A stretch of DNA of 64,000 nucleotides, from contig NZ_CXOO01000027.1 of assembly GCF_001269385.1 (NCBI RefSeq), positions 124,001-188,000 of the forward strand, written 5' to 3'. Made by a program: the position numbers and the translations under genes. This DNA is from Limnohabitans sp. DM1. Its GTDB lineage: Bacteria > Pseudomonadota > Gammaproteobacteria > Burkholderiales > Burkholderiaceae_C. The notes below the pieces were generated by a model, which was given only the letters and a program-made list of their open reading frames with translations, had not been told where the DNA came from and did not search any database. Positions 27,001 through 49,838 of the stretch are shown here, one piece after another (position 1 is the first letter of the stretch; each line of letters begins with the position of its first letter).

Positions 27001-30000
27001 TGGCGTGTGACCAGCACAGCATTGCTCGATGGCGAGCACAGCCTGACGGTCAAGAACCGCGATGCGGCAGGCAATATCGGTGGCCTCAGTGCGCCTCTGG
27101 TGGTCAACGTCGATACGGCGGCTCCCAATTTGTCGGTGGCCGCTGTGGCGGGCAATGACATCGTCAATGCCGCAGAAAAATCTGCAGGCCTGATTTTGCG
27201 CGGCAGCAGCGAAGCAGGCGCTTCGGTGCAGCTGTCCTGGACCGGTGCGCAAGGCATGCTGGACTTGCCCGCCACGACCGACGCCACGGGGCAATGGATC
27301 CTGGAGCTGAGTGCCACCGATCTGCAGGCCTTGGGCGAGGATGGCCTCACCAACCTGACCGTGAGCGCCACCGATGCTGCAGGCAACGTCAGCCGCATCA
27401 CGCGCAGCATCACGCTGATGAGCACGCCACCGACTGCGCCTGTCCTGAGCGGTTTGACCGTTGACACCGACAGCGGGCGCAGTGCCAGCGACGCGATCAC
27501 GGCCAACACCCTGCCCACGCTGGCGGGCCGTGCTGAGGGCGCGCAGTGGGTCAAGGTGTATCTGGGCAGTTCACTCCAAGCCACTGTGGCCGTCAGCGAT
27601 GGGCAATTCAGCTTCACGCCTGCACAGCGCTTGGCAGACGGTGTTTACCACTACACCGCTGTCGCCCTGGATGCAGCGGGCAACACCAGTGAGGTGAGTG
27701 GTGCCCTGAGCGTTACGGTTGACACGACGGCCCCCTTGGCCACCAGCCTGACAGGTCCTGATGTGACAGGCCAGGCACGGCCTACATTGACGGGCAGCGC
27801 CGAGCCCGATGCCCAGGTGCGTATTCTGGGCACCGGTCTGAACACCGAGCCGGTGGTTCAGGCCGATGCGGATGGGCTATTCAGCTGGCAACCGAGCGCT
27901 GATCTGGCCGATGGCCACTACAGCCTGATGGCGGAAGTCTTGGATCTGGCGGGCAATGTGTCCTCCAGGTCCGAGCCCTTGCCACTGCTGGTGGACACCC
28001 GAGCGCCCAATGCCCCGACATTGACGGGCTTTGGCACCGTAGGCGGCACACCCACGGCCTTGATTTCCGAGGTGCAGCAGCAGGTGCTGCAAGGCATGGC
28101 CGAGCCGGGTGCTGTGGTGGAAGTCTGGCGCGACGGGATCTTGTTGGGCACCCCCACAGCCGACAGCACAGGGGTCTTCACCCTGGACCTGACCGATGCA
28201 CCGCTGGCCGATGGCACCTACAGCTTCACCGCTTTGTCGACCGACAGGGCACTGAACATATCGGCCATGGCCAGTCTGTTTGACTTGACCGTGAGCACCG
28301 CAGCACCGGCCGTCGGAACACTGTCCTTGTTGGCCTTCACGGACAGCGGCGACAGCGACAGTGATGGCCTGACGCAAGACAACAGTTTCACGCTGTCTTT
28401 GACGGGTCAAGACCCGGCGGCCTTGGTGACTTATGAGGTCTCGACAGACGGCGGGTTGAACTGGGACACCACTTCGGCCGAACAAGGCCCGCTGGCAGAC
28501 GGCAGCTACCAGTTCCGCGCGCAGATGCTGGATGCCGACAGCAACCTGAGCTTGAGCAATGTGCACAGCGTGACGATTGACACCGCTGTGGCAGCAGGCG
28601 TGTTGAGCTTGGAGGGCTTGGCCGACAGCGTCAGCCAGTCAGGTGGCATCAACACCACCGACAACAGCTTTGATCTGAAACTGACAGATCCAGACGCCGA
28701 TGCCAGCGTGGTGTACCAAGTGTCCACCGACAGCGGCGCAAGCTGGAGCGCCACCTCCACAGCCCAGGTCCATCTGGCTGATGGCAGCTACCAGTTCCGG
28801 GCGCAAGTGACCGATGCAGCGGGCAATGTGGCCACGACGGCGGTGCAGCGTTTGACGATCGACACCACGCCAGAGCCCGTCACCCCAGTTGAACTGGACG
28901 TGATCAAGGCTTATGCAGACAGCAACGGCAGTGGTTCCGCCGCGGTGCCGGACCTGGCTGTGTTCACGGCATGCGCCGTGACCGGGGTCGATGCCAGCAA
29001 CCTGGACGCCATCCTCAGCGCCTTGGCCAGCAGTGCCGTCACTGCCGCCCAGACCGACACGGTGGCCAAAGTGCAGGCCATTGTCGATGCGTACCAGGCG
29101 ATTCAAGCCCACGCCGATGGCACATCGGACAACAATACGACAGCGCCTTCACAGGCGCAATACGCCGCCATCGGTGTGACCGGGGTAGACAGCGCAGACA
29201 AAGCCAGCTTGCTGGGCGATGTGATCGACGGCCAAGCCTTTGGCGCAGTTGACAGCGTGAGCGAAGTGCAAGCCTTGGCCGATGCCGTGCAAGCCGTCAT
29301 GGCCGGCACGCCCAGCCTGGCGCAATTGGCCAGTTTGGGTGTACAGGGGGTCACCGCTGAAAACCTGGCAGCCGTGCAAGCCGCACTGGCCAGCGTGACC
29401 GATGCCACGCAGCTGAGCAGCCTTGCGGCTGTGCAAACGCTGGTGTTGGCAGGTGCTTCTGACCATGCCGAGGGTACAGCCACCGCCGCATCGGCTGCAG
29501 CAACAGCCGCCGAAACAGCTGCAACGGCTTTGGTCAGTGCGGTTGCAGCCTTGAGCAGTCCGGCAACGCCCGCTGAGTTGGCAGACGTGGAGGCCAAGCA
29601 GGCCGCGGCCTTGGCGGCTACCGTTGATGCCGCTGCCAAAGCCGCAGCAGCGACCGCTGCCGCCACAGCCGCGCAAGCTGCTGCCACAGCGGCTGGTGAA
29701 ACAACGCCATCGGGCGTGACTGATGCCAAAAGTGCTGCAGCCGCTGCAAGTGCAGCGGCAGCAGCCGCAACTGCTGCAGCCACAACCAGCGAAAGCGCGA
29801 CCGACGCCAAAGTGGCCAGCTTGGCCACGGCCGCTGCCACGGCTGCAACTGCAGCCACAACGGCGGCTGCAGCAGCAACAGCGGCCAAGACCGCGCTTGA
29901 CAGTGCAGTTGCAGAACTGAGCAATCCGGCAACGCCAGCTCAGTTGAGCGATGTCGAAGCCAAGCAGGCCGCTGCCCAATCAGCCGCCGCAGATGCCGCC

Positions 30001-33000
30001 GCCAAAGCCGCAGCAGCGACTGCTGCCGCAACAGCCGCGCAAGCGGCTGCCACAGCGGCTGGTGAAACAACGCCATCTGGCGTGACAGCTGCCAACGCTG
30101 CCGCCACCGCTGCAAGTGCAGCGGGCACCGCTGCAACTGCTGCAGCCACAGCCAGCGAAACAGCGACAGACGCCAAAGTGGCCGACCTGGCAGCAGTTGC
30201 CGCCAATGCCGCAACTGCAGCCACAACAGCCGCAGCAGCAGCGACAGCCGCCAATGCAGCGTTAGAAAGCGCCGTTGCAGCACTGGGCAATCCGGCAACG
30301 CCAGCACAGTTGAGCGCCGTAGAGGCAAACCAAGCGGCTGCGCTCGCAGCTGCTGCTGATGCTGCTGCCAAAGCCGCAGAAGCGACCGCTGCCGCAACAG
30401 CCGCGCAAGCTGCTGCCACAGCGGCTGGAGAAACAACGCCATCCAGCGTGGCTGCTGCCAACAGTGCTGCTGCAGCTGCAAGTACAGCTGCAGCAGCCGC
30501 AACTGCTGCAGCCACAACCAGCGAAAGCGCGACCGACGCCAAAGTGGCCAGCTTGGCCACCGCCGCTGCCACGGCTGCAACTGCAGCCACAACGGCAGCC
30601 GCTGCAGCGACAGCCGCCAAGACAGCTTTGGACAGCGCCGTTGCAGAACTGGGCAATCCGGCAACGCCAGCTCAGTTGAGCGATGTCGAAGCCAAGCAGG
30701 CCATTGCCCAAGCAGCAGCCACAGATGCCGCCGCCAAAGCAGCAGCAGCGACCGCTGCCGCGGTAGCCGCGCAAGCGGCTGCCACAGCGGCTGGTGAAAC
30801 AACGCCATCTGGCGTCACAGCTGCCAACAGTGCTGCTGCCGCTGCAAGTGCAGCGGGCACCGCTGCAACTGCTGCAGCCACAGCCAGCGAAACAGCGACA
30901 GACGCCAAAGTGGCCGACCTGGCAGCAGTTGCCGCCAATGCCGCAACTGCAGCCACAACAGCCGCAGCAGCAGCGACAGCCGCCAATGCAGCGTTAGAAA
31001 GCGCCGTTGCAGCACTGGGCAATCCGGCAACGCCAGCACAGTTGAGCGCCGTAGAGGCAAACCAAGCGGCTGCGCTCGCAGCTGCTGCTGATGCTGCTGC
31101 CAAAGCCGCAGAAGCGACCGCTGCCGCAACAGCCGCGCAAGCTGCTGCCGCAGCGGCAGGTGAAACAACGCCATCCAGCGTGGATGTGGCCAATACCGCT
31201 GCCGCCGCTGCAAGCGCAGCAGGTACCGCTGCAATTGCTGCAGCCACAGCCAGCGAAACAGCGACCGACGCCAAAGTGGCCGACCTGGCTGCAGTTGCCG
31301 CCACTGCCGCCACTGCAGCCACAACAGCCGCAGCCGCTGCGACAGCCGCCAAGGCAGCTTTGGACAGCGCCGTTGCAGAACTGGGCAATCCGGCAACGCC
31401 AGCTCAGTTGAGCGATGTCGAAGCCAAGCAGGCCGCTGCCCAATCAGCCGCCGCAGATGCCGCCGCCAAAGCCGCAGCAGCGACTGCTGCCGCAACAGCC
31501 GCGCAAGCGGCTGCCACAGCGGCTGGTGAAACAACGCCATCTGGCGTGACAGCTGCCAACGCTGCTGCCACCGCTGCAAGCGCAGCGGGCACCGCTGCGC
31601 TTGCTGCAGCCACAGACAGCGAAACAGCCACAGACGCCAAAGTGGCCGACCTGGCAGCAGTTGCCGCCACTGCCGCAACTGATGCCACAACAGCCGCAGC
31701 TGCAGCGACAGCGGCCAAGGCAGCTTTGGAGAGCGCCGTTGTAGCACTGGGCAATCCGGCAACGCCAGCGCAGTTGAGCGATGTCGAAGCGAAGCAGGCC
31801 ATTGCCCAAGCAGCAGCCACGGATGCCGCTGCCAAAGCCGCAGCAGCGACTGCTGCCGCAACAGCCGCGCAAGCAGCTGCCACAGCGGCTGGTGAAACAA
31901 CGCCATCTGGCGTCACAGCTGCCAACAGTGCTGCCGCCGCTGCAAGTGCAGCGGGCACAGCCGCGACTGCTGCAGCCACAGCCAGCGAAACTGCGATAGA
32001 CGCCAAAGTGGCAGACCTGGCCACGGTAGCTGCCAACGCAGCCGATGCAGCAACAGCGGCAGCCGATGCAGCATCAGAGGCCAAGACTGCTTTGGTCGAG
32101 GCAGTCAATGCTCTAGGCAGTCCAGCAACGCCAGCGCAATTGGCCAACGTAGAGGTCAAACAAGCCGCAGCTTTGGCTGCTGCCGCAGATGCTGCAGCCA
32201 AAGCACAGGCGGCCACAGCTGCCGCGAACGCCACGCAAGCCGCGGCTTCAGCGGCTGGTGAAACAGTCCCTGACAGCGTGGCCATTGCCATCAGTGCGGC
32301 CACAGCTGCAAATGCAGCGGACACCGACGCCACTGCATCGGCCACGGCCAGCGAAACCGCGACAGACGCCAAAGTGGCAGACCTGGCCACGGCAGCTGCC
32401 AACGCAGCCGATGCAGCAACAGCGGCAGCCGATGCAGCATCAGAGGCCAAGACTGCTTTGGTCGAGGCAGTCAATGCTCTAGGCAGTCCAGCAACGCCAG
32501 CGCAATTGGCCAACGTAGAGGTCAAACAAGCCGCAGCACAAGCAGCGGCAGTCGACGCTGCAAACGCAGCCGCAGCGGCGAGTGATGCCGCAAGAGCAGC
32601 CGAGGACGCCGCTGTAGCCGCGAACGAAACCGAGCCTGACAGTGTGGCAGCTGCCAACAATGCTGCCGCCGCTGCAAGCACAGCGGGCGCAGCCGCAACA
32701 GCTGCCGCAAATGCCAGCGAAACCGCGACAGACGCCAAAGTGGCCATCTTGGCCACGGCAGCTGCCAACGCAGCCGATGCAGCAACAGCGGCAGCCGATG
32801 CAGCAACAGCGGCCAAGACTGCTTTGGACGAGGCAGTCAATGCCTTGAGCAGTCTGGCAACGCCAGAAGAACTGGCGGCAGTGCAAGACAAACAGGCCGC
32901 AGCACAAGCAGCGGCAGTCGACGCTGCAAACGCAGCCGCAGCGGCGAGTGATGCCGCAACAGCAGCGGAGGACGCCGCTGTAGCCGCGAACGAAACCGAG

Positions 33001-36000
33001 TCTGACAGTGTGGCAGCTGCCAACAATGCTGCCGCCGCTGCCAGCACTGCGGGCACCGACGCCAGCGCATCGGCCACCGCCAGCGAAACCGCGACAGATG
33101 CCAAAGTGGCAGACCTTGCCACGGCAGCTGCCAACGCGGCCGATGCAGCAACAGCGGCAGCCGATGCAGCAACAGCGGCCAAGACTGCTTTGGACGACGC
33201 AGTAAAAGCCCTGGGCAGTCCGGCAACCCCAGCGCAATTGACCAACGTAGAGGTCAAGCAAGCTGCAGCTTTGGCTGCTGCCGCAGATGCTGCAGCGAAA
33301 GCACAAGCAGCCACAGCTGCCGCGACCGCCGCGCAAGCCGCCGCTTCAGCGGCCGGTGAAACAGTCCCTGACAGCGTGGCCATTGCCATCAGTGCGGCCG
33401 CAGCTGCAAATGCAGCGGACACCGACGCCACCGCATCGACCACGGCCAGCGAAACCGCGACAGACGCCAAAGTGGCCATCTTGGCCACTGCAGCTGCCAA
33501 CGCAGCCGATGCCGCAACAGCGGCAGCCGATGCAGCAACAGCGGCCAAGACTACTTTGGACGAGGCAGTCAATGCCTTGAGCAGTCCGGCAACTGCAGCG
33601 CAATTGACCAACGTAGAGGTCAAGCAAGCCGCAGCTTTGGCTGCTGCCGCAGATGCTGCAGCGAAAGCACAAGCGGCCACAGCTGCCGCGAACGCCGCGC
33701 AAGCCGCCGCTTCAGCGGCCGGTGAAACAGTCCCTGACAGCGTGGCCATTGCCATCAGTGCGGCCACAGCTGCAAATGCAGCGGACACCGACGCCACTGC
33801 ATCGGCCACGGCCAGCGAAACCGCGACAGACGCCAAAGTGGCAGACCTGGCCACGGCAGCTGCCAACGCAGCCGATGCAGCAACAGCGGCAGCCGATGCA
33901 GCATCAGAGGCCAAGACTGCTTTGGTCGAGGCAGTCAATGCTCTAGGCAGTCCAGCAACGCCAGCGCAATTGGCCAACGTAGAGGTCAAACAAGCCGCAG
34001 CTTTGGCTGCTGCCGCAGATGCTGCAGCGAAAGCACAAGCAGCCACAGTTGCCGCGAAAGTGGCACAGGACGCAGCAGCAGCAGCAGGCGAAGCCGAACC
34101 TGACAGCGTGGGTGATGCCAACAGTGCGGCCACAGCTGCAAATGCAGCGGACACCGACGCCACTGCATCGGCCACGGCCAGCGAAACTGCGACAGACGCC
34201 AAAGTGGCAGACTTGGCCACGGCAGCTGCCAACGCAGCCGATGCAGCAACAGCGGCGGCCGATGCAGCAACAGCGGCCAAGACTGCTTTGGACGACGCAG
34301 TTAAAGCCTTGAGCAGTCCGGCAACGCCAGCGCAATTGGCCAACGTAGAGGTCAAACAAGCCGCATCTTTGGCTGCTGCCGCAGATGCTGCAGCGAAAGC
34401 ACAAGCAGCCACAGCTGCCGCGAAAGTGGCACAGGACGCAGCAGTAGCAGCAGGCGAAGCCGAACCTGACAGCGTGGGTGATGCCAACAGTGCGGCCACA
34501 GCTGCAAATGCAGCGGACACCGACGCCACTGCATCGGCCGCGGCCAGCGAAACTGCGACAGACGCCAAAGTGGCAGACTTGGCCACGGCAGCTGCCAACG
34601 CAGCCGATGCAGCAACAGCGGCAGCCGATGCAGCAACAGCGGCCAAGACTGCTTTGGACGACGCAGTTAAAGCCTTGAGCAGTCCGGCAACGCCAGAAGA
34701 ACTGGCGGCAGTGCAAGACAAACAAGCCGCAGCACAAGCAGCGGCAGTCGACGCTGCAAACGCGGCCGCAGCGGCGAGTGATGCCGCAACAGCAGCCGAG
34801 GACGCCGCTGTAGCCGCGAACGAAACCGAGCCTGACAGCGTGGCAGCAGCCATAGCCGCTGCGAATGCAGCAAGCACAGCGGGCGCAGCCGCAACAGCTG
34901 CCGCAAATGCCAGCGAAACCGCGACAGACGCCAAAGTGGCCATCTTGGCCACGGCAGCTGCCAACGCAGCCACTGCAGCAACAGCGGCAGCCGATGCAGC
35001 AACAGCGGCCAAGACTGCTTTGGACGAGGCAGTCAATGCCATCGGCAGTCCGGCAACTGCAGCGCAATTGACCAACGTAGAGGTCAAGCAAGCCGCAGCT
35101 TTGGCTGCTGCCGCAGATGCTGCAGCGAAAGCACAAGCAGCCACAGTTGCCGCGACCGCTGCGCAAGCCGCCGCTTCAGCGGCCGGTGAAACAGTCCCCG
35201 ACAGCGTTGCCATTGCCATCAGTGCGGCCACAGCTGCAAATGCATCGGACACCGACGCCACTGCATCTGCCACCGCCAGCGAAACAGCGACAGACGCCAA
35301 AGTGGCAGACCTTGCCATGGCAGCTGCCAACGCAGCCACTGCAGCAACAGCGGCAGCTACAAAAGCAATAGAAGCCAAGACTGCTTTGGACGAGGCAGTC
35401 AATGCCCTGGGCAGTCCAGCAACGCCAGAGGAACTGGCGGCAGTGCAAGACAAACAGGTCGCAGCACAAGCAGCGGCAGTCGACGCTGCAAACGCAGCCG
35501 CAGCGGCGAGTGATGCCGCAACAGCAGCCGAGGACGCCGCTGTAGCCGCGAACGAAACCGAGCCTGACAGTGTGGCAGCTGCCAACAATGCTGCCGCCGC
35601 TGCAAGCACAGCGGGCGCAGCCGCAACAGCTGCCGCAAATGCCAGCGAAACCGCGACAGACGCCAAAGTGGCCATCTTGGCCACGGCAGCTGCCAACGCG
35701 GCCGATGCAGCAACAGCGGCAGCCGATGCAGCAACAGCGGCCAAGACTGCTTTGGACGAGGCAGTCAATGTCCTGGGCAGTCCAGCAACGCCAGCGCAAT
35801 TGACCAACGTAGAGGCCAAGCAAGCCGCAGCTTTGGCTGCTGCCGCAGATGCTGCAGCGAAAGCACAAGCAGCCACAGCTGCCGCGACCGCTGCGCAAGC
35901 CGCCGCTTCAGCGGCCGGTGAAACAGTCCCCGACAGCGTTGCCATTGCCATCAGTGCGGCCGCAGCTGCAAATGCAGCGGACACCGACGCCACCGCATCG

Positions 36001-39000
36001 ACCACGGCCAGCGAAACCGCGACAGACGCCAAAGTGGCCATCTTGGCCACGGCAGCTGCCAACGCAGCCGATGCAGCAACAGCGGCGGCCGATGCAGCAA
36101 CAGCGGCCAAGACTGCTTTGGACGACGCAGTTAAAGCCTTGAGCAGTCCGGCAACTGCAGCGCAATTGACCAACGTAGAGGTCAAGCAAGCCGCAGCTTT
36201 GGCTGCTGCCGCAGATGCTGCAGCGAAAGCACAAGCGGCCACAGCTGCCGCGAACGCCGCGCAAGCCGCCGCTTCAGCGGCCGGTGAAACAGTCCCTGAC
36301 AGCGTGGCCATTGCCATCAGTGCGGCCACAGCTGCAAATGCAGCGGACACCGACGCCACTGCATCGGCCACGGCCAGCGAAACTGCGACAGACGCCAAAG
36401 TGGCAGACTTGGCCACGGCAGCTGCCAACGCAGCCGATGCAGCAACAGCGGCAGCCGATGCAGCAACAGAAGCCAAGACCGCTTTGGACGACGCAGTTGA
36501 AGCCTTGAGCAGTCCGGCAACGCCAGCGCAATTGACCAACGTTGAGGTCAAACAAGCCGCAGCACAAGCAGCGGCAGTCGACGCTGCAAACGCAGCCGCA
36601 GCGGCGAGTGATGCCGCAACAGCAGCGGAGGACGCCGCTGTAGCCGCGAACGAAACCGAGTCTGACAGTGTGGCAGCTGCCAACAATGCTGCCACCGCTG
36701 CAAGCACAGCGGGCACAGCCGCAACAACTGCCGCAAATGCCAGCGAAACCGCGACAGACGCCAAAGTGGCCATTTTGGCCACGGCAGCTGCCAATGCAGC
36801 CGATGCAGCAACAGCGGCAGCCGATGCAGCAACAGCGGCCAAGACTGCTTTGGACGACGCAGTTGAAGCCTTGAGCAGTCCGGCAACGCCAGCGCAATTG
36901 ACCAACGTAGAGGTCAAGCAAGCCGCAGCACAAGCAGCGGCAGTCGACGCTGCAAACGCAGCCGCAGCGGCGAGTGATGCCGCAACAGCAGCGGAGGACG
37001 CCGCTGTAGCCGCGAACGAAACCGAGTCTGACAGTGTGGCAGCTGCCAACAATGCTGCCGCCGCTGCAAGCACAGCGGGCGCAGCCGCAACAGCTGCCGC
37101 AAATGCCAGCGAAACCGCGACAGACGCCAAAGTGGCCATCTTGGCCACTGCAGCTGCCAACGCAGCCGATGCAGCAACAGCGGCAGCCGATGCAGCAACA
37201 GCGGCCAAGACTGCTTTGGACGAGGCAGTCAATGCCATCGGCAGTCCGGCAACTGCAGAGCAATTGACCAACGTAGAGGTCAAGCAAGCCGCAGCTTTGG
37301 CTGCTGCCGCAGATGCTGCAGCGAAAGCACAAGCAGCCACAGTTGCCGCGACCGCTGCGCAAGCCGCCGCTTCAGCGGCCGGTGAAACAGTCCCCGACAG
37401 CGTTGCCATTGCCATCAGTGCGGCCACAGCTGCAAATGCATCGGACACCGACGCCACTGCATCTGCCACCGCCAGCGAAACCGCGACAGACGCCAAAGTG
37501 GCAGACCTTGCCACGGCAGCTGCCAACGCAGCCACTGCAGCAACAGCGGCAGCCGATGCAGCAATAGAAGCCAAGACTGCTTTGGACGAGGCAGTCAATG
37601 CCCTGGGCAGTCCAGCAACGCCAGAGGAACTGGCGGCAGTGCAAGACAAACAGGTCGCAGCACAGGCAGCGGCAGTCGACGCTGCAAACGCAGCCGCAGC
37701 GGCGAGTGATGCCGCAAGAGCAGCCGAGGACGCGGCTGTAGCCGCGAACGAAACCGAGCCTGACAGCGTGGCAGCAGCCATCGCCGCTGCGAATGCAGCA
37801 AGCGCAGCGGGCGCAGCCGCAACAACTGCCGCAAATGCCAGCGAAACTGCGACAGACGCCAAAGTGGCAGACCTTGCCACGGCAGCTGCCAACGCAGCCG
37901 ATGCAGCAACAGCGGCAGCCGATGCAGCAGCAGCGGCCAAGACTGCTTTGGACGAGGCAGTCAATGCCCTGGACAGTCCGGCAACGCCAGAAGAACTGGC
38001 GGCAGTGCAAGACAAACAGGCCGCAGCACAGTCAGCGGCAGTCGACGCTGCAAACGCAGCTGCAGCGGCGAGTGATGCCGCAAGAGCAGCCGAGGACGCC
38101 GCTGTAGCCGCCAACGAAACCGAGCCTGACAGCGTGGCAGCAGCCATCGCCGCTGCGAATGCAGCAAGCGCAGCAGGCTCAGCCGCAACAACTGCCGCAA
38201 ATGCCAGCGAAACCGCGACAGACGCCAAAGTGGCAGACCTTGCCACGGCAGCCGCTGATGCCGCGACCGCAGCGACAACAGCGGCTGCAACAGCAACTGA
38301 AGCTAAGGACGCTCTGGACTTCGCCGTCTCAGCATTGAGCGATCCGGCAACAGCAGACGAACTGGCTGATGTCGCAGCCAAACAAGCCGCAGCGCTGGAT
38401 GCTGCCGCAGATGCCGCAGCGAAAGCGCAAGCCGCCACAGCGGCTGCGACCGCAGCACAGGCCGCCGCCGCAGCAGCAGGCGAAGCCGAACCTGACAGCG
38501 TGGGTGATGCCAACATTGCCGCCTCCGCTGCCAGCACTGCGGGCACCGACGCCACCGCATCGGCCACGGCCAGCGAAACAGCAACCGACGCCAAAGTGGC
38601 TGACCTGGCCACGGCAGCTGCCAACGCAGCCACTGCAGCAACAGCGGCAGCCGAGGCAGCAACAGAAGCCAAGACTGCTTTGGACGAGGCAGTCAATGCC
38701 TTGAGCAGTCCGGCAACGCCAGAGGAGCTGACGGCATTGGAAGTCAAACAAGCCGCAGCGCAAGCAGCGACAGTCGAAGCTGGTTCCGCAGCCGCAGCGG
38801 CGACGGCAGCCGCAGCAGCAGCCCAGGCCGCCGCCACTGCCGCCAACGAAACCGAACCTGCCAGCGTGGCAGCAGCCAACGCCGCTTCGGGTGCAGCGAC
38901 TGCAGCGGCGCAGCAGGCCGCAGCGGCTGTGCTGAGCAGCTCGGCGCAAATCGACCGTACCGCATCGGCTGACTTGAACGTTTACACGCTGGCCGGTGTG

Positions 39001-42000
39001 GCCGGTGTGGGTGCCGCAGCTCAACCCAGCGTGGCCATGGTCAACAGCGTGCTGGCCGATCGAGACATCACCGGCGTGCAAGCCGACAGCGCTGCAGACG
39101 TTCAGGTGATCGTGGATGCTTATGCCGCTGTCTTGCAAAGCGCAGATGGCCAGGCCAGCAACAGCACGCCCCCAACGTCAGCGCACTATGCGGCGCTGGG
39201 CATCAATGGCATGGACAGCGCCTTGAAGCTGGGGCTGCTGGGCGAAGTGATTGACGGCAAAACCGCAGCCGATGTGGACAGTGTGGCCAAACTGCAAGTG
39301 CTGGCCGATGCTGTGCAGGCGGTGGTGGCCAGTGCCGCAGGCCAAGGCGTGCCAACGCTGGCGCAGTTGCAGGCTCTGGGCCTCACGGCTGTGACGGCAG
39401 GCAATTTGTCTGCCGTGCAGTCGGCCCTGGCCGCGTCTGCCGATGATGGCTCGGGTGTGAGCACCTTGGGGGCCTTGCAAGCCATGGTCGATGCCTGCAC
39501 GCGCATCCTGGCGGAAGCCAATGGCGCAGCAGGAGATGCCGACAGCGCTGTCAATCCGGGCGTTGCTGACTACCAAGCGATGGGGGTTGATCTGGGCCTT
39601 TTGCGTGGCAACGCCAGCGGCATGGCTTTGTTGCAAGACGTGGTGGCCAGCCAGACCAGCACGGCCGTGGACACCTCCGGCGAAGTGAACGCACTGGCCC
39701 GTGCGGTCCAGGCCGTGTTGTCCCAGGCGCTGGATGCCACCCCAGCCGTGGTGCCTGTGGCGATAGATTTCGCCTTGATCGGTGCTGCTCAGGTGGCTGC
39801 TTTGCGCCCTGGCTCGGCAGCGCTGGCTTTGTTCAACGATCTGATCGCTTCCGCCAGCCCGGCCATGCTGGACAGCGTGGCCAAGATCGATGCGCTGGCC
39901 AGCCTGGCCGAGCGCTTCATGGTGGTGGCGGCCAGCCAGGCCAGTGCATTGACTGCCAACCAGGCCCTGAGCCCGGCAGACTTCCTGGCCTTGGGAATTT
40001 CTGGCGTGGACAGCGCCAATTTGGCGCAGGTCCTGAGCGCCATCGCCAACACCGCCAATGACGGCAGCCAGATTCAGACGCTGGCGCAGCTGCAAACGCT
40101 GGTATTGACCACCGTGCGTGATCAGCAAGCCGCAGTGGATGCGCAAGCCCGCTTGCAGGCCTATGCCAATGACCCCGCCAACGCTGCCGTGCCAAGCCTG
40201 GCCGACTACACCTTGCTGGGTGTGAGCGCTGTGAATGCCGACACACGGGCGTTCCTCAATCAGGCGCTGGCCACACAGCCGTTCAGCGGCGGCATCACGG
40301 CGCAGGCCTTGCAGGCCATGGTGGATGCGTACAACCGCATCCAGTCAGAAGCCAATGGCAGCGCCAACGACCTGACCGTGAGCGACCCCACGGCGGCCAG
40401 CTTCGAGCGCATCGGCGTGGACCTGGGTGTGGCGGCGCAAAACACGGCCCTGGGGCAAAACGCCTTGGCGCTGCTCAACGATGTCATCGGCGCACAAACG
40501 ACGCCAGCGGTGCACACCGTGGCGCAGATCCAGGCGCTGGCCAGCATCACCTCGGCGCTGCTGGAGACGGCCGCTGGCTTGACGCCTGCACAGGCGCTGA
40601 CACCGGCGGATTTCGCCTTGCTGGGGGTCACAGGCGTCACGGCTCAAAATCTGAACGCAGTGCTGGCTGCCTTGGTCAGCACGCCCGATACCGGGGATGC
40701 GATCAACTCGCTGGCCCGCTTGCAAAGCGTGGTGACTTCGGCATCTGAGCAAGCAGCAGCCATCGGTGTCTTGCAAGCCGTGGTCGACACCCAGTCGGGC
40801 AACCCCAACCTGAATGTATGGGTGCAAGCGGGCCTGACCGGTGTGACCGAGGCCAATCGCCTGGCGCTGCTCGATGCCCTGCAAAGCGGTGCCATCTCGA
40901 CTGTCACGCCTGCAGCCTTGCAGGCCGTGCTCGATGCCTACCAGTTGGTGCTGGTCGAAGCCAATGGCGGCGCACCCGATGCCAGTGCCGTGAACCCGAC
41001 TGCGGCCACCTTTGCGGCCATCGGTGCCACTGCCGCCGCCTCGCTGGCAGACGGCTCGGTGGCTCAGCAATTGCTGCTCGATGTGATCGCCAATGCGCAG
41101 TCCACAGCGGTCGATCAGGTCAGCAAGATCGACGCCCTGGCCCAGACGGTGGAGGGCCTGATGCACACGGCGGCAGGCCTGGCGGCCAGCCCCGCATTGA
41201 GCGCGGATGACTTTGCTGCTCTGGGTATCTTCGGCGTGGATGCCGACAATTTGGCCGATGTGTTGGCCCGTGTGGCCGCAGGATCGGCAGCGGGCAGCGG
41301 TGTGCTCAGCCTCAATGACTTGCAGCAAAGCGTCAGCGAGGTGATTCGCAGCAGTCAAGCAGCCCAGGCGGTCATTCAGGCGGCTTTGGCGGTCATTGCG
41401 CAGTCGGCAGACGACACGGCTGCGCCATTGCCGCGACTGGCCGATTACCTCGTGGCCGGTGTCAGCGGCGTGAACACGAACAACCTGGCGGCCATCAACA
41501 GCGTGCTGGCCAGCAGCGCAGTGCAGGGCGAGCAGGTCCGCACAGCGGCCCAAATCCAGGCCATGGTGGATGCGTATGTGCTCATCTTGGCCGAAGCCAA
41601 TGGCGCGGCCGCCGACAGCACGGCAGCCAATCCGCAGGCCGCGACCTATGCGGCCATTGGTGCCACTGCAGCGGCTGCGCTGTCTGATGGCTCTTTTGGC
41701 CAGCAGTTGCTCAACCAGGTGATGGCCGACAAGACGACGTCTGCCATCGACAGCGTGGCCGAGATCGAAGCGCTGGCCAACACGGTTCAGGCCTTGCTGG
41801 TGACCGCCGCTGGTGGTACGCCCAGCGTGGCCTTGAGCGCCGCCGATTTGCAGGCCCTGGGTCTGAGCGGTGTCACGCCCTTCAACCTGAGCGCGATTTT
41901 GGCGGCGGTGGCCGCGACAGCCGACAGCGGTGCTGGTGTGACCGATCTGGCGGCCTTGCAGGGCCTGGTCAACACGGTGCGGGGCGATTTGTTGCAGGTC

Positions 42001-45000
42001 TTGCAGCGCTATGCCAGCAGCAACAGTGGTGCCGCCCCCACCTTGGCCGATTGGCAGCGTGCCGATGTGCAAGGCGTGGACAGTCGCAATGTGTTTGCGC
42101 TCAACAGTGCACTGGCCAGCAGCGCCATCACGGGGGATGCGATCGCCAGCTTGCCTGATGTGCAGGCGCTGGTCGATGCGTATGCCGGCATCCTGGCCGA
42201 AGCCAATGGTCCTGCGGCCGATGCCTCGCCACAGTTCCAGGTGCAGGCGGCAGACTATGCCCGCATCGGCGCGGTGACGGCGGCAGCCTTGTCGCCCGAG
42301 GGCCTGCGCCTCATGGACGCGGTGCTGGCCGATCAGCCTTTCTATCTGGTCGACTCGGTGGACGAGCTTCAATCGCTGGCCTCCACCGTGGACAAGCTCA
42401 TGAGCCTGGCCGATGGGCAAGACCCGGCATCGCCCCTGACAGTGGCCGAGATGCAAGCCCTGGGCATGACCGGTGTGCAAGGCACAGCGCTGGTGGCGCT
42501 GGCCGACTTGCTCAAGTCGCCAGCGGTCAATCCGTCTGATCTGCAGTCCATGACCGATGTGCGCAGCTGGCTGCAGCAAGCCAGCCAAAGCGCGGCGCTG
42601 GCCGTGCTCACCCGTTACACGCAAGATGCCACGGCGGCCGCGCCCGCTGTGGCCGACTTTGCATACGCGCAGATCACCGGTGTGGATGCCCGCAATTTGG
42701 CGGCCATTCACTCGGCTTTGAGCAGTGCGGCTGCCAAAGGCGCAGTGCTGGATACGGCCGCCAAAGTGCAGGCCGTGGTCGATGCGTGTGCGCGCATCCT
42801 GGCCGAAGCCAACGGCACGCTGGTGGATGCCACCCCCGACAGCCAGCCCACAGCGGCCGATTACGCCGCCATCGGCGCCACCACAGCTGCGGCCTTGACC
42901 GCGCCTGCGCTGGCCTTGCTGAACGACAGCATCGCCAACATGCAAGCGGCCGATGTGTCGACGGTGGCGCAGATTGAAGTTCTGGCCGATACGGTGCAGC
43001 GCCTCATGGCGGTGGTGGCGGGCCAAGCGGCTTCGCTGAGCGTGGCCGACCTGCAGCGTCTGGGTGTGGACACCACGGGCATGTCGGCCGGACAGCTGGC
43101 GGTGGTGGTGTCGGAGTTGGTGGACCTGGCCGACGATGGCCGCGATGTGGCCCGTTTGTCTGCGTTGCAAGGCCTGGTCTTCACCGTCACCGATCGCCTG
43201 GCCCGTGTGGTGGGGGTTCAGTTGTCGAGCGACACCGGTCCGTCGGCCAGCGATTTCATCACGGCCAACAACAACCAGTTCATCAGTGGCACCCTGAATG
43301 CGCCACTGGGCATCTTTGACCGCGTCTATGGCCGACTTGATGGCCTGCAAGCCATGCCCGCGGATGCCAACTGGGTGGCTGCAGGCTGGACTGACTTGAC
43401 CGCGCATGTGGACGGCACATTGCTTCAATGGCCGGACGCGCAGCTCTTGGCGGGCCCTGCCCGCAGCCTGGTCTTGCAGGTCGTGCGCGACAACGGTGCC
43501 GATCCGCTGCGTACCAGCGAGGCTCGGGTGCAGGATTACCGATGGATCAGCGAATTGCTTGCACAGACGGCGCCACAGAATGCGCCAGTGCCCGAAGGCG
43601 GCAACCCCTCGCCCAGCGGGCTGGTGCGCCTGAAAGTGGACAACTTGCCAGACGGCACAGCCAATGTGGTCTTGCTGGTCGATGGCCGGGCAGTGCCCAG
43701 CTTGTTCCATGTGGCCACGTTGACGCTGATGCCGCTGTCGGCCCTGCCCGAAGGCAACTGGAATTTGCAGTACCAGTTCCAGGACATGGCGGGCAATGTG
43801 TCCACAGTCAGTCCGTCCTTGCAGATGCGCATCGTCTCGCCGCAAAACGGTATGGATCTGGAATCTCTGGATGGCGACGGGGTGCTGTTTTCCAACGAGA
43901 AGAACTTTGGCGACATCAACGGCGATGGCCTGGATGATGCTGATCAACGCGATGTGGTCACTTTCCAAACCTCTGCAGGCCAAGTCATGGCCTTGGACAC
44001 CACCCGTCAGGGCGCGGGCAATATGCAGGCGCTGTTGGGTGATCCGGTGAACAACCCTGGCGGTCAACTGCGGGTGGAGGTGCAAATCGACAGCGTCACC
44101 AGCCGTGCGGTCACCGCAGCCGAGCGGGCGCAGGCCTTGTCGGGCAGCCAGCTGGACAGTGCCGACGTGTTTGCGGCCACCGACGTGATTTCATTCCGTC
44201 ACTATCCGCAAGTGGTGCGTCTGGGGGATGTGGATGAAACCGCCGTCGATGCGCTGTCTGCACAGGTGCTCAGCGCCTATGTGGGGCAGGTGCATGAAGT
44301 CGATGTGAAAGTTGCCGAGGGTCTCTACAACACCTATTTCAAAGTGGGTAGCCAAGGCGTGTGGGCCTTCACCTGGGACGAGGCCAGCGGCACCGGTGCC
44401 AAATTCCTGGACACCAACAGCGACGGGTTCATCGACCTGGTGCGCCTGTTCATCCGTGATGGTGGGCGTGGCGATGACGATGGCGTGGCAGATGGCGTCG
44501 TGTTCGACCCAGGCTTTGTGGCGGCCGTGCGTGAAGCACCGCAAGTGCGCCTGGAGTCTTTCCCTGTGGCCGCCGATGGCGTGATCACTGCGGGTGAAGC
44601 CGGGCAGGTGAACTTGTCGGGCAGCACCACAGGCGTGGAAGCGGGCCAGCCCTTGACGGTGGTGTTCAGCGACGGTGTGCACACCGTCACTGCGGTGACC
44701 AACGTGGACAGTCAGGGCCGTTGGGCGCTGCAGGGCGTGGATTTGCGTGCCTTGTCGGATGGGCCCGTGAGCCTGAGCCTGTCGGTCAGCAACCAGGTGG
44801 GTGACGCCACCGCTTTGGCCGACACTGTGCAGCTGGACAAGTCGGTGCCCGTTACTGTGCCTAAGCCAGTGCCTGAGCCAGTGCCTGAGCCAGTGCCTGA
44901 GCCAGTGCCTGAGCCAGTGCCAGTGCCAGTGCCAGTGCCAGTGCCAGCGCCAGCGCCAGCGCCAGAACCGCCCATATCTGAACCCGCGCCCCTCACGGGC

Positions 45001-45717: not shown

Positions 45718-45724
45718 ATACCTT

Positions 45725-47095
45725 ATGACTCAATCAAGCGGGCCACCAGCGGCTTTGGACAATTCGCCCTTGTTGACCCTGTTCGAGCTGGGTCAACAAG
45801 CGAGGCAGGCGCAGTCACACGATGAATTGGCGTTTTTGCTGTGCAACACCACCCACGCGTTGCTGCCTTACCGGCAAGCGGTGTTGTGGCTGGGCGACGA
45901 AGGTGTGCGCGCCTTGTCGGGCGTCAGCCAGGTGGAGCACAACACGCCTTACCTCGATTGGGTCAAGGCCTTGCTGGCCCAGCCCTGGGCATCGCAGCCG
46001 GGTGTGCAGGCCTTGAGTGCGCTCGACTTGCCAGCGCAGCAGCAGCCCAGCTGGGCCGAATGGTGGCCACAAAACGCGCTCAGTTTGCCGCTGGATGTGG
46101 CGCCGGGTGCGCGCCTCTTGCTGGCCCGCGATGTGCAGTTTTCTGAAGCCGACCAAGCCAAACTCATGGCCTGGCTGTCTGTGTGGCAACACGCCTGGCG
46201 TGCACTGGCCCGGCAGCAAAGGCCTGCGCTGGGTCAGCGTTTGCGCAGCTGGCGGCGCCAGTGGCGCCTGGCCGGGCAAAAGCCCTGGTTCAAGCGGCCA
46301 GGGGTCTGGTTGATGGCGGTGCTGCTGGGTTTGTTGTTTTTGCCGGTGCGCATGACGGTGCTGGCGCCCGGCGAGCTGGTGCCTGCCCAGCCTGTGGTGG
46401 TGCGCGCCCCGATCGAGGGGGTGATTGCGCGTTTTCATGTGCAGCCCAACCAGACCGTGCGCAGCGGGCAGCAGCTGTTCGAGTTTGACGAGGCTTTGCT
46501 GCAAAGCCGTGTGGCGGTGGCCCAGCAGACGCTGGAGACGGCGCAGGCGCAATTTCGCCAGACCCATCAACTGGCCCTGGATGATGCCAAGTACAAGGCC
46601 GAATTGGCGGCTGTGGCCGGTGCCATTCAGGAGCGGCGCAGCGAGTACGAGTTCCTCAAGTCCCAATTGCAGCGCACCCAGGTCAGCGCCAGCGGCGCGG
46701 GCATGGTCTTGCTGGACGACCCCCTGACCTGGGTGGGCAAACCGGTGGCGGTGGGCGAGCAGATTTTGCGCATCGCCCGCCCGAGCGACATCGAGGTCCA
46801 GGCCTGGCTGCCGCTCGACGATGTGGTGCAGCTGCCCGTGGGCTCGACGCTCACCTTGTTTTTGCAATCGAGCCCTTTGTCGCCCGTGCATGCCGAGTTG
46901 ACCTACCTGTCGCATGAAGCCGTGCTGCGGCCCGATGCCACCTACGCATACCGCTTGCGTGCGCGGCTGCTGGCGCCCACGCCCCACAGCGTGGGGCAAA
47001 AGGGCACGGCGCGCGTGAGTGGCGAGTGGACTTTTCTGGGTTACTGGCTGCTGCGCAAGCCGCTGGCCTTGATCCGCACCAGTTTGGGGCTCTGA
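45725..47095 (+). CDS. HlyD-type membrane fusion protein with GAF-like cytosolic N-terminus
   Basis: 456 residues. Residues about 15-180 resemble a GAF-type fold (ELAFLLCNTTHALLPYRQA...VLWLGDEG). A basic stretch (QRLRSWRRQWR) and one membrane helix (about 194-212, WLMAVLLGLLFLPV) follow. The periplasmic part has the split biotinyl-lipoyl motif (VVVRAPIEGVIARFHVQPNQ and SGQQLFEFDEALL), a short helical hairpin and an adaptor beta-domain. This is the layout of periplasmic adaptors (HlyD/MFP) that link inner-membrane exporters to an outer-membrane channel. It starts 7 bp after the giant gene and ends 1 bp before the M50 gene, so the three are almost certainly cotranscribed. The GAF-like domain is unusual for an adaptor and could sense a cytosolic signal. 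Partner channel not visible. Confidence 0.85.
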   Translation: MTQSSGPPAALDNSPLLTLFELGQQARQAQSHDELAFLLCNTTHALLPYRQAVLWLGDEGVRALSGVSQVEHNTPYLDWVKALLAQPWASQPGVQALSALDLPAQQQPSWAEWWPQNALSLPLDVAPGARLLLARDVQFSEADQAKLMAWLSVWQHAWRALARQQRPALGQRLRSWRRQWRLAGQKPWFKRPGVWLMAVLLGLLFLPVRMTVLAPGELVPAQPVVVRAPIEGVIARFHVQPNQTVRSGQQLFEFDEALLQSRVAVAQQTLETAQAQFRQTHQLALDDAKYKAELAAVAGAIQERRSEYEFLKSQLQRTQVSASGAGMVLLDDPLTWVGKPVAVGEQILRIARPSDIEVQAWLPLDDVVQLPVGSTLTLFLQSSPLSPVHAELTYLSHEAVLRPDATYAYRLRARLLAPTPHSVGQKGTARVSGEWTFLGYWLLRKPLALIRTSLGL

Positions 47096-47096
47096 C

Positions 47097-49205
47097 ATGG
47101 CCTGGCCCTTGTTGCGCGAAGAGCTGGATGTGTTTGCCGGCCCCACCAGTTCCGAGGGGCAGCCCAGCTGGGTGCTGCATGACCCGGTGCGTCAGCAATA
47201 CTTTCAGATTGATTGGCTGACCTGGGAGGTCTTGTCGCGCTGGGGTCTGGGGCACACCGAAGCCATCGTGCATGCGGTGGCGCGGGACACGCCTTTGCAA
47301 ATCGAGGCCAAGCACATCGAAGAGGTGATGACCTTCTTGTCGCAGCATGAGCTGCTGCTGCCCACTGATGCCAAAGCCGCCGCCGAGATGGCCCAAAAAG
47401 TGGCCCGCACCCGCCAAAGCGTCTGGACCTGGCTGGTTCACCACTATCTGTTTTTCCGCATGCCGCTGGTCAAACCCGATGCCTGGCTGAGCCGCTGGAT
47501 GGGCGTGGCGGAGGTGTTTTTCTCGCGTCGCTTCATGGCCCTGACCGGCTTGGTGCTTTTGGTGGGCGTGTACCAGGTGATGCAGCAGTGGAGCTTGTTC
47601 ACGGCCACTTTGGTGGACACCTTCACCTGGCAAGGCTTGCTGTCTTATGGGGTGGCCTTGTCGGTGGTCAAGGTGCTGCATGAATTGGGGCACGCTTTTG
47701 CCGCCAAGCGCCAAGGCTGCCGTGTGCCGCGCATGGGGGTAGCGTTTTTGGTGATGTGGCCCATGGCCTACACCGATACCAACGAGGCCTGGCGTTTGCC
47801 CGGACGGCGCGCCCGTGTGCAGATTGCGGCGGCGGGCATCGTCACCGAGCTGGTGATCGCCTGCTGGGCCACCTTGGCCTGGGCCTTGTTGCCGGACGGG
47901 GGCTTGCGCTCCAGCGCGTTTTTTGTGGCCACGCTCAGTTGGGTGGCCACGCTGGCCATCAATGCCAGCCCCTTCATGCGCTTTGATGGCTATTTCATCG
48001 CCATGGATTTGTTGAACTTGCCTAATTTGCACGCGCGCAGTTTTGCGCTGGCGCGCTGGCAGTTGCGTGAATGGTTGTTCCAATTGGGCGAAGCGCCGCC
48101 CGAGCGCATGACGCCACTGGGGCAGTGGGGCATGGTGGTCTTTGCATTGGCGGTGTGGGTTTACCGGCTGGTGCTGTTTCTGGGCATCGCCTTGATGGTG
48201 TACCACCTGTTCACCAAGCTGCTCGGGGTGCTGCTGTTTGTCATCGAGATTTACTGGTTCATCGTGAATCCGATCCGCTCTGAAATCGTGGCCTGGATGC
48301 AGCGTTCGGCGGTCATTCGCCAGCGTCGGCGCAGCCTGTGGAGCGGCGCTTTGCTGCTGGCCCTGGGCGCGCTCATGGCGCTGCCCCTGCCCACATTGAT
48401 CACCGCGCATGCCATGCTGCGGCCCGGGCAGTCGTGGCCTGTTTATGCGCCCGGCCCTGCGCAGCTGCAGGCCTTGCCCCTGGCCGATGGCGCCCGGGTG
48501 GCCAAAGGCCAGCTGCTGGCCCGCATGAGCGAGCCGGAATTGCTGGCACAAACCGATGTGGCGCAGGCCAAAAGTGCCCGCCTGAGCTGGCAGGCGGCCA
48601 CGACCAGTTTGGCTTATGCCTCCAGTCAGCCCCTGAAGCTGGCGCGTGAGCAGTTTCAGATGTCACAAGCCGATGCGCGCAGGCTGCAAGACCAGATGGC
48701 GCCGTTTGCCCCGGTGGCCCCTTTTGCAGGCGTGTTCCGCTGGACGCAACCGGACTTGGCGGTGGGCCAATGGCTGGCGCGTCATGAGCAAATCGGCGTG
48801 TTGACCGCCGATGAGCCCTGGAAAGTCGAAACCTGGCTGGATGAAGAGCAGGTCAAGCGCTTGAAGCTGGGCAACAAGGCGCACTTTTGGGCCCCAGGTC
48901 TCAGCCAGCCGGTTGCGCTGACCATCACCCTGATGGACGCCGACGCCACCCGTCAGCTGCCCGATGGCCAGTTGACCGCGCCCATGGGCGGCCATGTGCT
49001 GGCCCGTGAACAAGGCGGCAAGTGGTTTCCCGAGCAGGCGGTGTATCGCGTGGTGCTGGCGCTGGATGAGGCCGATGCGGCCCGCTTGCCTGCCCACCTG
49101 CCGGTGCAGCGCGGGCACCTGAGCGTGTCAGCGCAAGCGGAGTCCTTGCTGGGGCGTTATGTGCGCCAGGCTTTGTCGGTGGTGTTGCGGGAGTTTCAGC
49201 CTTGA
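47097..49205 (+). CDS. PqqD-like / M50 site-2-type metalloprotease / HlyD-type fusion protein
   Basis: 702 residues. The N-terminal 95 residues resemble a PqqD-like winged-helix domain (YFQIDWLTWEVLSRW). Multiple membrane helices follow, carrying the zinc motif HELGH at 195-199 and the second metal-site motif NASPFMRFDGYF, with its Asp at 297. Both are characteristic of the M50/'peptide zinc metalloprotease' family. After the last helix (about 422-440) a periplasmic part has lipoyl-like halves (VYAPGPAQLQALPLADGARV and APVAPFAGVFRW) and a HlyD-type beta-domain. Catalytic residues look intact. Inferred role: processing or transport of the giant protein together with the upstream adaptor. This class of M50-HlyD fusion is known from genome annotation but poorly characterised. 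Confidence 0.85.
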   Translation: MAWPLLREELDVFAGPTSSEGQPSWVLHDPVRQQYFQIDWLTWEVLSRWGLGHTEAIVHAVARDTPLQIEAKHIEEVMTFLSQHELLLPTDAKAAAEMAQKVARTRQSVWTWLVHHYLFFRMPLVKPDAWLSRWMGVAEVFFSRRFMALTGLVLLVGVYQVMQQWSLFTATLVDTFTWQGLLSYGVALSVVKVLHELGHAFAAKRQGCRVPRMGVAFLVMWPMAYTDTNEAWRLPGRRARVQIAAAGIVTELVIACWATLAWALLPDGGLRSSAFFVATLSWVATLAINASPFMRFDGYFIAMDLLNLPNLHARSFALARWQLREWLFQLGEAPPERMTPLGQWGMVVFALAVWVYRLVLFLGIALMVYHLFTKLLGVLLFVIEIYWFIVNPIRSEIVAWMQRSAVIRQRRRSLWSGALLLALGALMALPLPTLITAHAMLRPGQSWPVYAPGPAQLQALPLADGARVAKGQLLARMSEPELLAQTDVAQAKSARLSWQAATTSLAYASSQPLKLAREQFQMSQADARRLQDQMAPFAPVAPFAGVFRWTQPDLAVGQWLARHEQIGVLTADEPWKVETWLDEEQVKRLKLGNKAHFWAPGLSQPVALTITLMDADATRQLPDGQLTAPMGGHVLAREQGGKWFPEQAVYRVVLALDEADAARLPAHLPVQRGHLSVSAQAESLLGRYVRQALSVVLREFQP

Positions 49206-49217
49206 ATGGCTGGGATT

Positions 49218-49240
49218 CTGTGGGTTCAAAACACCCACAG
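49218..49240. terminator. Stem-loop between convergent genes, possible bidirectional terminator
   Basis: A perfect 8-bp inverted repeat, ctgtgggt/acccacag, with a 7-base loop sits 13 bases after the stop of the M50 gene and overlaps the 3' end of the convergent yqaA-like gene. There is no clear T-run on either side, so intrinsic termination is only a candidate role. Confidence 0.4.
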
Positions 49241-49690
49241 CAGCAAGCTGGTCATGAACAGATAGCGCAGAAATTTGCCAAGGGCCATGTACAGCGTGCA
49301 GGGCCAAAGCGGCATGCGCAGCCAGCCGGCCACGGCGCACAGCGGGTCGTCCACGATGGGCAGCCAGGACAGCAGGCAGGCTTTGGGGCCAAGTTTTTCG
49401 AGCCAGATCAAAGCCCGTGTGTGGCTGGACGAATGGCCCCAGCGGTTGACCACACGGCGCGACCCCCACCCCAGCCACCAACTGATCACGCCGCCGAGGG
49501 TGTTGCCCACGGTGGCTACCAAAATGGCTGGCCAAAACATGTCGGGGTTGAGTTTGATCAGGCCAAAGACGGCGGGCTCAGAGCCCAAAGGCAACAAGGT
49601 CGCCGAGATGAAGGCCACCACAAACACGGTGCTCAGGCCGTGCTGGGGAAGGGCCAGCCAGTGCAGAAATTGATTGAGCCAAAGTTCCAT
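49226..49690 (-). CDS. YqaA-family small inner-membrane protein (DedA/SNARE-associated superfamily)
   Basis: 154 residues, mostly hydrophobic, with about four membrane segments. Diagnostic stretches are ISATLLPLGSEP near residue 30, then VATVGNTLGGVISWWLG and GRMxxR-like WLRMPLWPCTLYMALGKFLR near the C-terminus, as in the YqaA branch of the DedA superfamily. DedA proteins are linked to lipid-carrier transport and envelope homeostasis; the function of YqaA itself is not well defined. It runs convergently with the export genes and divergently from the receptor operon, so it is probably a separate transcript. Confidence 0.85.
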   Translation of the reverse strand: MELWLNQFLHWLALPQHGLSTVFVVAFISATLLPLGSEPAVFGLIKLNPDMFWPAILVATVGNTLGGVISWWLGWGSRRVVNRWGHSSSHTRALIWLEKLGPKACLLSWLPIVDDPLCAVAGWLRMPLWPCTLYMALGKFLRYLFMTSLLLWVF

Positions 49691-49809
49691 CCGGCTCAGT
49701 GTAGCGCGATGATGGGGTAACGATCGTGTGGTTTAAATCGTTAAAAGTCACAAGATGCAAGAGTGTCATTTCCATTATTTGAATTTATCAAATTAATTAA
49801 ATGATGAAT

Positions 49810-49838
49810 TTGTTTGTGGCATTAAGGGGTAATAAATG
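49810..49838 (+). promoter_or_regulatory. Candidate sigma-70-type promoter of the receptor operon
   Basis: The 204-bp divergent spacer (49691-49894) is strikingly AT-rich compared with its surroundings. A ttgttt (49810-49815) and a taaatg (49833-49838) are separated by 17 bases; taaaat at 49839-49844 is an alternative -10. A 5-bp inverted repeat gttga/tcaac (49851-49867) lies just downstream and could be an operator. All of this is by eye only. Confidence 0.3.

Follow-up and report, generated by a model that had tools for sequence, protein, structure and literature searches.

A five-gene row without an ABC transporter gene as a candidate export system for giant bacterial proteins

The operon and its two inner-membrane adaptors

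In the 64,000-nucleotide stretch of Limnohabitans sp. DM1 analysed here (the window; contig NZ_CXOO01000027.1, G000:C27:124001-188000), a gene for a giant protein of 15,494 residues belongs to a row of five genes on one strand, in the order OEP, MFP1, giant, GAF-HlyD and M50-HlyD. The set appears to represent a route, so far unstudied, by which some of the largest proteins known from bacteria are exported without the customary pump powered by ATP. According to the list of open reading frames (ORFs) and its translation, the giant gene occupies window positions 1..45717 on the plus strand, with its 5' end at C27:123233, 768 bases before the window. OEP (L003:16533-18119) and MFP1 lie upstream of the window on the same strand as the giant gene, share a four-base overlap and directly precede it. 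They encode a 528-aa TolC-family channel (Pfam OEP, E 8e-24) and a 346-aa RND/HlyD-type adaptor (RND_mfp above cut-off), respectively. Behind the giant gene, both ORFs of the original prediction are present on the plus strand as it described them: GAF-HlyD (456 aa, 45725..47095) starts 7 bp and M50-HlyD (702 aa, 47097..49205) 1 bp behind the preceding stop. The adaptor parts it assigned to both proteins were recovered as HlyD_3 matches (E 5e-18 and 1e-7), and M50-HlyD also matched Peptidase_M50 (E 5e-10). No ABC (ATP-binding cassette) transporter gene was found among the neighbours of the operon by Pfam/NCBIfam and ORF neighbourhood searches; a TolC-type channel and an adaptor lie just upstream, where a complete type I ABC/TolC system would have spoken against the original prediction. 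Its proposal that a protease-like membrane protein takes the place of the pump holds insofar as the operon lacks an ABC gene, but the replacement is not a matter of two proteins; a four-protein module of tripartite type stands there instead. Among the matches listed, the closest named genome is Limnohabitans sp. T6-5, whose M50-HlyD is 95% identical.

An AlphaFold model of GAF-HlyD was built from 57 sequences (the window protein and those of 56 of the 80 loci described below; one near-duplicate was dropped, and the rest were truncated, outside the length range or absent) and had a mean predicted local distance difference test (pLDDT) score of 92.5. For both membrane proteins the top 50 Foldseek rows were adaptor matches, and the remaining parts were resolved by VIA-align on the models. 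Residues 12-167 of GAF-HlyD aligned with phytochrome GAF domains (Z about 15) and residues about 202-439 with MacA (Z 15-16), suggesting a MacA/MexA-like adaptor. The only hydrophobic segment spans residues 192-216, and the GAF domain is inferred to be cytoplasmic. GAF domains are often ligand sensors. The predicted GAF part is thus upheld by the modelled fold but not by Pfam, since Pfam GAF gave no match in the window protein and a weak match in 8 of the 57 aligned sequences; missing Pfam GAF or PqqD rows were not read as a missing fold.

The M50-HlyD model, from 71 sequences (the window protein and 70 of the 80 loci, with one near-duplicate dropped and the rest truncated, outside the length range or absent), had a mean pLDDT of 89.8 and falls into three parts. 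Residues 2-94 (47100..47378, plus strand) adopt in the model a fold of three strands and three helices like that of PqqD and of the RRE, the recognition element of ribosomally synthesized and post-translationally modified peptides (RiPPs), and are a candidate leader-binding domain. Leader-binding RREs are among the nearest structures: 6jx3 (Z 10.9, rmsd (root-mean-square deviation) 2.6, 82 residues aligned) and 5v1v (Z 10.2) were both solved with lasso leader peptides bound. Residues 176-372 (47622..48212, plus strand) form a predicted site-2-protease core aligning with RseP 7w6x (Z 10.5, identity 25%), and residues 128-309 align with SpoIVFB in its pro-sigmaK complex, 8vjl (Z 9.9). RseP and SpoIVFB are examples of M50 proteases that act in signalling, SpoIVFB by cleaving pro-sigmaK. 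The translation reads HELGH at residues 195-199 (47679..47693, plus strand) and Asp297 within NxxPxxRFDGY (47985..47987, plus strand), as originally predicted; by analogy with other site-2 proteases, Asp297 would occupy the third zinc ligand position. His195, Glu196, His199, Asn289, Pro292 and Asp297 are kept in 71/71 aligned sequences, and His195, Glu196, His199 and Asp297 in 26/26 sequences spanning the two groups defined below. Because these catalytic residues are invariant, the protease is likely to be under constraint and is apparently intact. Finally, residues 432-680 (48390..49136, plus strand) are predicted to be a periplasmic HlyD/MacA-like adaptor half (Z 15.1 to MacA 9qgy_G). M50-HlyD also resembles the daptide/epipeptide M50 proteases (NF041824, NF058609), as daptide_HExxH matches residues 21-384 with E 1e-45, below its cut-off (156/300 bits). 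In contrast to these, the window protein has a C-terminal adaptor half, an exporter operon and a giant neighbour.

Recurrence of the module and its SecA-bearing sister group

A search for the module gave at least 589 confirmed stretches, and we describe the best 80 named loci, in which close relatives are over-represented. Their M50-HlyD proteins are 35-95% identical to that of the window, and their hosts include Pseudomonas, Variovorax, Chromobacterium, Serratia, Pantoea and Phytobacter as well as Azospirillum, Marinomonas, Nitrospira and Desulfopila. GAF-HlyD is present in 75 of these loci, MFP1 in 52, OEP in 51 and all four exporter genes in 50; among the 30 incomplete ones, 12 have a large ORF crossing the upstream edge of the examined DNA and 11 more start within 2 kb of that edge. 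The recurrence beside giants expected from the original prediction was observed: 59 loci have an ORF of 600 aa or longer no more than 600 bp from the module, and in 54 of them the strand is the same. Of the other 21 loci, 15 start no farther than 2 kb from the upstream edge. No accessory SecA was found in any of the 80 fetched stretches, and a simple motif scan found no ABC-motif ORF inside the module in any of them.

The module also resides on plasmids, with 54 matching plasmid records. In our sample of 14 records (12 distinct loci, after three near-identical enterobacterial records were merged), the annotated rows in E. coli, Kosakonia and Burkholderia read giant, TolC, RND adaptor, HlyD, HlyD, with no ABC gene in the row, and none is listed for the copies in Magnetospirillum, Niveispirillum, Eleftheria, Azospirillum, Citrobacter and Variovorax. 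Of 5,426 complete E. coli genomes, 24 contain near-identical copies, and 21 of the 25 places where these lie are on plasmids. Proteobacteria carry the system widely, and plasmids make it mobile. On E. coli IncF plasmids (L163, L164), the module and a 4,459-aa Ig-like giant are followed by an IS1 transposase gene, and the module parts are annotated as TolC and, for the most part, efflux adaptors. A Variovorax paradoxus plasmid (L177, L179) carries, ahead of the module, a gene of 48,720 bases for a 16,239-aa giant with the box LEARYMFDAA. Beside the module of Magnetospirillum plasmid pMSR-1 lies a gene for a 492-aa ELWxxDGT protein (L169:6499-7977), which has the C-terminal box GKPTFQEELRMA and no N-terminal box (both boxes are described below) and is perhaps a shortened cargo.

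Among 120 relatives, M50-HlyD was found in 28, namely the window type (group A) in 16 genomes and a second type (group B) in 15, three genomes having both. Groups A and B separate in the tree with support of 100/100 (12 and 14 sequences). A short SecA gene stands beside M50-HlyD in 20 of the 21 group-B loci, and all 20 short SecA genes of the 120 genomes adjoin a group-B M50-HlyD, seven fragmentary SecA rows (G005, G039:C30, G051, G057) having been set aside as pieces of housekeeping SecA. In the SecA of locus L050 we found matches to SecA_DEAD, P-loop and preprotein-binding domains, together with GEGKT and VDEAD in the sequence. By comparison, the 13 group-A-only genomes have exactly one SecA match each, and the window's own genome has no accessory SecA, its one SecA match (a 930-aa frame) lying on another contig. 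The one group-B locus without an adjoining SecA (L056, G087:C2) lies near an ORF resembling the DUF4347 region of the window giant.

Genomes with the group-B loci (L050-L070) contain giants of the LEPR-XLL family, with frames of up to 18,552 aa. The NCBIfam model for this family (NF012209) matches 14/15 group-B genomes versus 3/105 others, and those three matches are group-A giants. The LEPR-XLL giants are thus candidate cargo of the accessory-SecA module. In L050, a protein of about 310 aa without a Pfam or NCBIfam match is encoded between SecA and the LEPR giant (L050:18091-19020), and L051, L053 and L059 have ORFs of 286-310 aa at the matching position.

By domain content rather than sequence comparison, group B corresponds to a module described by Kamneva et al. 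2015 (PMC4452313), whose text gives a secondary SecA_DEAD/HlyD/M50/GAF module, proposes SecA as energy source and M50 as pore, and states that nothing at all is known of what the module does; none of the words LEPR, adhesin, cargo and surface appears in the main text of that paper. The window system shares with that module, as the text presents it, M50-HlyD, GAF-HlyD, a further HlyD adaptor, sometimes OEP and the lack of an ABC gene. It differs in having no accessory SecA and an FDGA-type box instead of LEPR-XLL, and it forms a clade separate from the SecA-bearing group of our survey. In the literature we searched, with preprints outside its range and subscription papers few, there was no description of the SecA-less subtype, its RRE domain, the paired boxes or the LEPR-XLL link, and no paper combining peptidase M50 and HlyD with giant proteins or a GAF domain. 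The original idea of a poorly described route for giant proteins therefore stands as regards the association with giants, which recurs, but not as regards the whole family, the SecA-bearing relative being in print already, though barely described; judged by sequence, what appears to be new is the SecA-less subtype. Our results also supply candidate cargo, the LEPR-XLL giants, for an accessory-SecA module that was left without a role in 2015.

Conserved boxes at the two ends of the giant proteins

The window giant contains 21.6% Ala. Pfam scans of two stretches of 4,990 aa and of the C-terminus gave DUF4347 near the N-terminus, PATR, many Ig-like Big_13 repeats and a marginal He_PIG near the end. 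An RTX-type identity of the cargo was considered and rejected, the giant having a single GGxGxD in its 15,494 residues. Two long ORFs lie antisense within the gene on the minus strand (31404-38879, 2,491 aa; 15361-21456, 2,031 aa) and probably just mirror its repetitive and Ala-rich make-up.

Giants adjoining the module share an N-terminal box (N-box), LE[QP]RxMFDGA, which in most cases lies 10-45 residues into the protein and whose L, E, R, F, D and A are the same in all 23 aligned sequences. The window giant has LEQRLMFDGA, located by the N-box search at C27:123350-123409 on the plus strand, outside the window. A 22-residue profile of the box, run against the 120 whole relatives, matched 15 genomes once each, comprising 13/16 group-A genomes versus 2/104 others (Fisher 6e-13). 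In the two others (G010, G036) a contig end interrupts the operon, which still has the upstream adaptor gene and, in G010, the channel gene as well. The group-A genomes without a match are G004 and G023, both with the module at a contig end, and G063 (a 403-aa M50-HlyD frame only). A class-wide survey of 369 genomes, in which three candidates were scored per genome and the border of 450 bits was set by eye, found the N-box in 11/19 genomes with the system versus 2/350 without, a base count that excluded possible members represented by fragmentary matches (G175, G272, G304 and G335 at the least); with these four added, the figures were 11/23 versus 2/346 (Fisher 3e-13). G242 and G364 have the N-box and no M50-HlyD match in that survey. 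Among the plasmid loci, which lie outside the set that gave the profile, 11/12 have the loose form LExRxx[FY]D[GA][AS], with Tyr in Burkholderia and Cupriavidus, and pMSR-1 is the miss. On the Caballeronia plasmid the box is part of a stretch of 359 codons that stops ahead of the large ORF, and on Azospirillum plasmid B510 the boxed ORF is 10 kb away from the M50-HlyD gene.

The LEPR-XLL giants likewise carry an N-terminal LExR box on very large proteins, but theirs has an LLSA core and goes with the other exporter subtype, whereas the window type has FDGA. The window giant itself scored 19.8 bits against NF012209 in a six-frame search and 16.5 bits in a protein scan, on either side of the cut-off of 17. 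Judging from these sequences, the N-box is a cousin of LEPR-XLL, and each exporter subtype pairs with its own version of the box.

Most group-A giants end with a second box (C-box), GRxSLSEQLRxA, mostly 20-50 residues before the end; in the window giant it reads GRVGLSDKLAQS, 27 residues before the end (45634..45669, plus strand; C-terminal comparison). After removal of near-duplicates had reduced 58 giants to 54, the pattern was present within the last 110 residues of 38/54 versus 2/2,040 random windows from the same proteins, and for 48 of the 51 ranked giants of at least 900 aa a leave-one-out matrix put the best site of the whole protein inside this C-terminal stretch (about 2.9 expected). 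The pattern had been picked after viewing these C-termini, which makes the plasmid set the fair test. In that set of related and partly truncated proteins, from which the cut-off B510 giant was excluded, the C-box ranked first in the last 110 aa in 10/11, with Caballeronia as the miss and a weak site (2.7 bits) in the E. coli plasmid protein. In the nine C-termini scanned, no Pfam or NCBIfam model above cut-off covers the box, and a He_PIG Ig match ends ahead of it in seven. The best C-box site in the last 110 aa ranked first in one (L066) of seven group-B large ORFs, one of the seven being antisense to another.

Proposed export mechanism and alternative explanations

Type I systems of giant adhesins (the LapBCE/LapA kind) combine periplasmic adaptors, a TolC-type channel and very large repetitive cargo. 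The window system resembles them in all three respects, having three HlyD-family adaptors and a TolC-family channel (OEP, E 8e-24). It differs from them in the lack of an ABC gene in the operon, the single GGxGxD of its giant, the extra inner-membrane adaptor with RRE and protease parts, and the boxes at both cargo ends. Because an ABC gene in the operon was looked for and not found, we do not class it as a type I system. Our preferred reading, to which we give a probability of about 0.57, is that the module is a dedicated, type-I-like exporter of giants with no ABC gene of its own, in which the RRE/site-2-protease adaptor would handle an N-terminal leader; both secretion and proteolysis by the module are inferred. 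If correct, it would give some of the largest bacterial proteins a probable export route with testable signals at both ends.

Under this preferred reading, the RRE of M50-HlyD would bind the N-box of the giant as RREs bind RiPP leaders, since the RRE is the peptide-leader fold of the system and the box type tracks the exporter clade. The site-2 protease would then probably cut in or close to the leader, much as SpoIVFB cuts pro-sigmaK, and this cleavage could serve to commit the giant, to mature it or to release it. MFP1 and the adaptor halves of the two inner-membrane proteins would together form a periplasmic conduit to the TolC-type channel. By symmetry, we guess that GAF might read the C-box. 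As for energy, the motor of group A is probably something that every recipient already has, because plasmids carry the five genes as a unit; the SecA-less type might be driven by housekeeping Sec/SecA or by proton-motive force, which again is a guess. The fuller picture is one of RiPP-like logic applied to secretion, in which the RRE captures the leader box of proteins of up to about 17,000 residues, GAF reads the C-box, the protease gates passage through TolC or release without a dedicated ATPase, and the SecA-bearing LEPR-XLL system is a motorised sister; we offer this picture tentatively, as somewhat more likely to fail than to hold. To our knowledge, RRE leader recognition is known only from peptide natural products, and the picture would tie it to bulk protein secretion.

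Several observations weigh against the preferred reading. Pfam PqqD matches neither the window M50-HlyD nor any of eight further group-A N-termini (0/8), while one of two sister-group N-termini gives a match with E 0.075. The PqqD-like domain of the original prediction is thus borne out by the modelled fold but not by Pfam, and it is the fold that identifies it as a putative RRE. Six of the 80 best loci have upstream room and no adjoining large ORF (L089, L093, L095, L127, L146, L150); of these, L146 and L150 stop at a downstream edge, and in L089 a large ORF with the box lies farther along, on the opposite strand. M50-HlyD is an orphan on plasmid B510. Seven of the 80 stretches have ABC-motif ORFs elsewhere, outside the module, and in L114 (Serratia marcescens) genes for a 700-aa ABC protein and an adaptor directly follow the module on the opposite strand, possibly as an unrelated type I system next door. 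The same side of the balance holds two results on LssB-type ABC genes, which bear on the question of a pump encoded elsewhere.

If the giant left through a conventional type I ABC exporter whose gene lies elsewhere, OEP and the adaptors would partner that exporter, and M50-HlyD would mature or regulate. The window's genome offers such genes, with three of LssB type above cut-off (contigs C14, C22 and C58) and one of PrtD type (C67). LssB-type genes are also commoner in group-A genomes (11/16 versus 29/104, Fisher 0.003), a difference that may instead reflect larger genomes. The pair next door in L114 and the C-terminal box, which is reminiscent of type I signals, would fit this explanation as well. 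Against it, LssB above cut-off is missing in 5/16 group-A genomes. In three of these (G004, G012 and G083, which are 92, 99 and 98% complete), no LssB-, HlyB- or PrtD-type gene lies above cut-off, the HlyB and PrtD families having been searched in six genomes, although LssB-like genes scoring 601 and 631 bits against the cut-off of 693 in G012 and G083 weaken this argument. The plasmid-borne gene rows without a listed ABC gene, and the single GGxGxD of the giant, also speak against a conventional ABC exporter, and we regard it as unlikely.

Closer to our preferred reading, and a version of it with overlapping odds, is a SecA-dependent module that uses housekeeping SecA, perhaps with SecYEG, M50-HlyD being a docking or hand-over platform whose protease is secondary. 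The adjoining accessory SecA in 20/21 sister-group loci, with Walker motifs in the one read, and the exactly one SecA match in each of the 13 group-A-only genomes agree with this; the invariant catalytic residues (71/71), however, argue that proteolysis matters, and nothing directly ties housekeeping SecA to the module. We consider this version a minority possibility, a little less probable than the RiPP-like picture. It is highly improbable, in our judgement, that the giant leaves by housekeeping Sec while GAF-HlyD and M50-HlyD act as an envelope signalling pair, sensor and regulated intramembrane protease, monitoring giant assembly. The core of M50-HlyD does match the signalling proteases RseP and SpoIVFB by fold, and ligand sensing is common among GAF domains, but the N-termini of 24 giants have no Sec-like hydrophobic core (the highest 13-residue hydropathy mean was 1.68), and each of the two proteins has an adaptor half, their genes standing together with those for a channel and another adaptor.

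A promoter and terminator scan of positions 45600-49900 gave one promoter-like site (0.6 expected) and seven terminator-like sites (5.2 expected). Downstream of the exporter genes, positions 49895-54673 contain genes for a TonB-dependent receptor, a YfiR-like (DUF4154) protein and a CHASE8-HAMP hybrid kinase, and two near relatives (L035 and L036) have ORFs of similar size downstream of their exporters, as judged by size alone.

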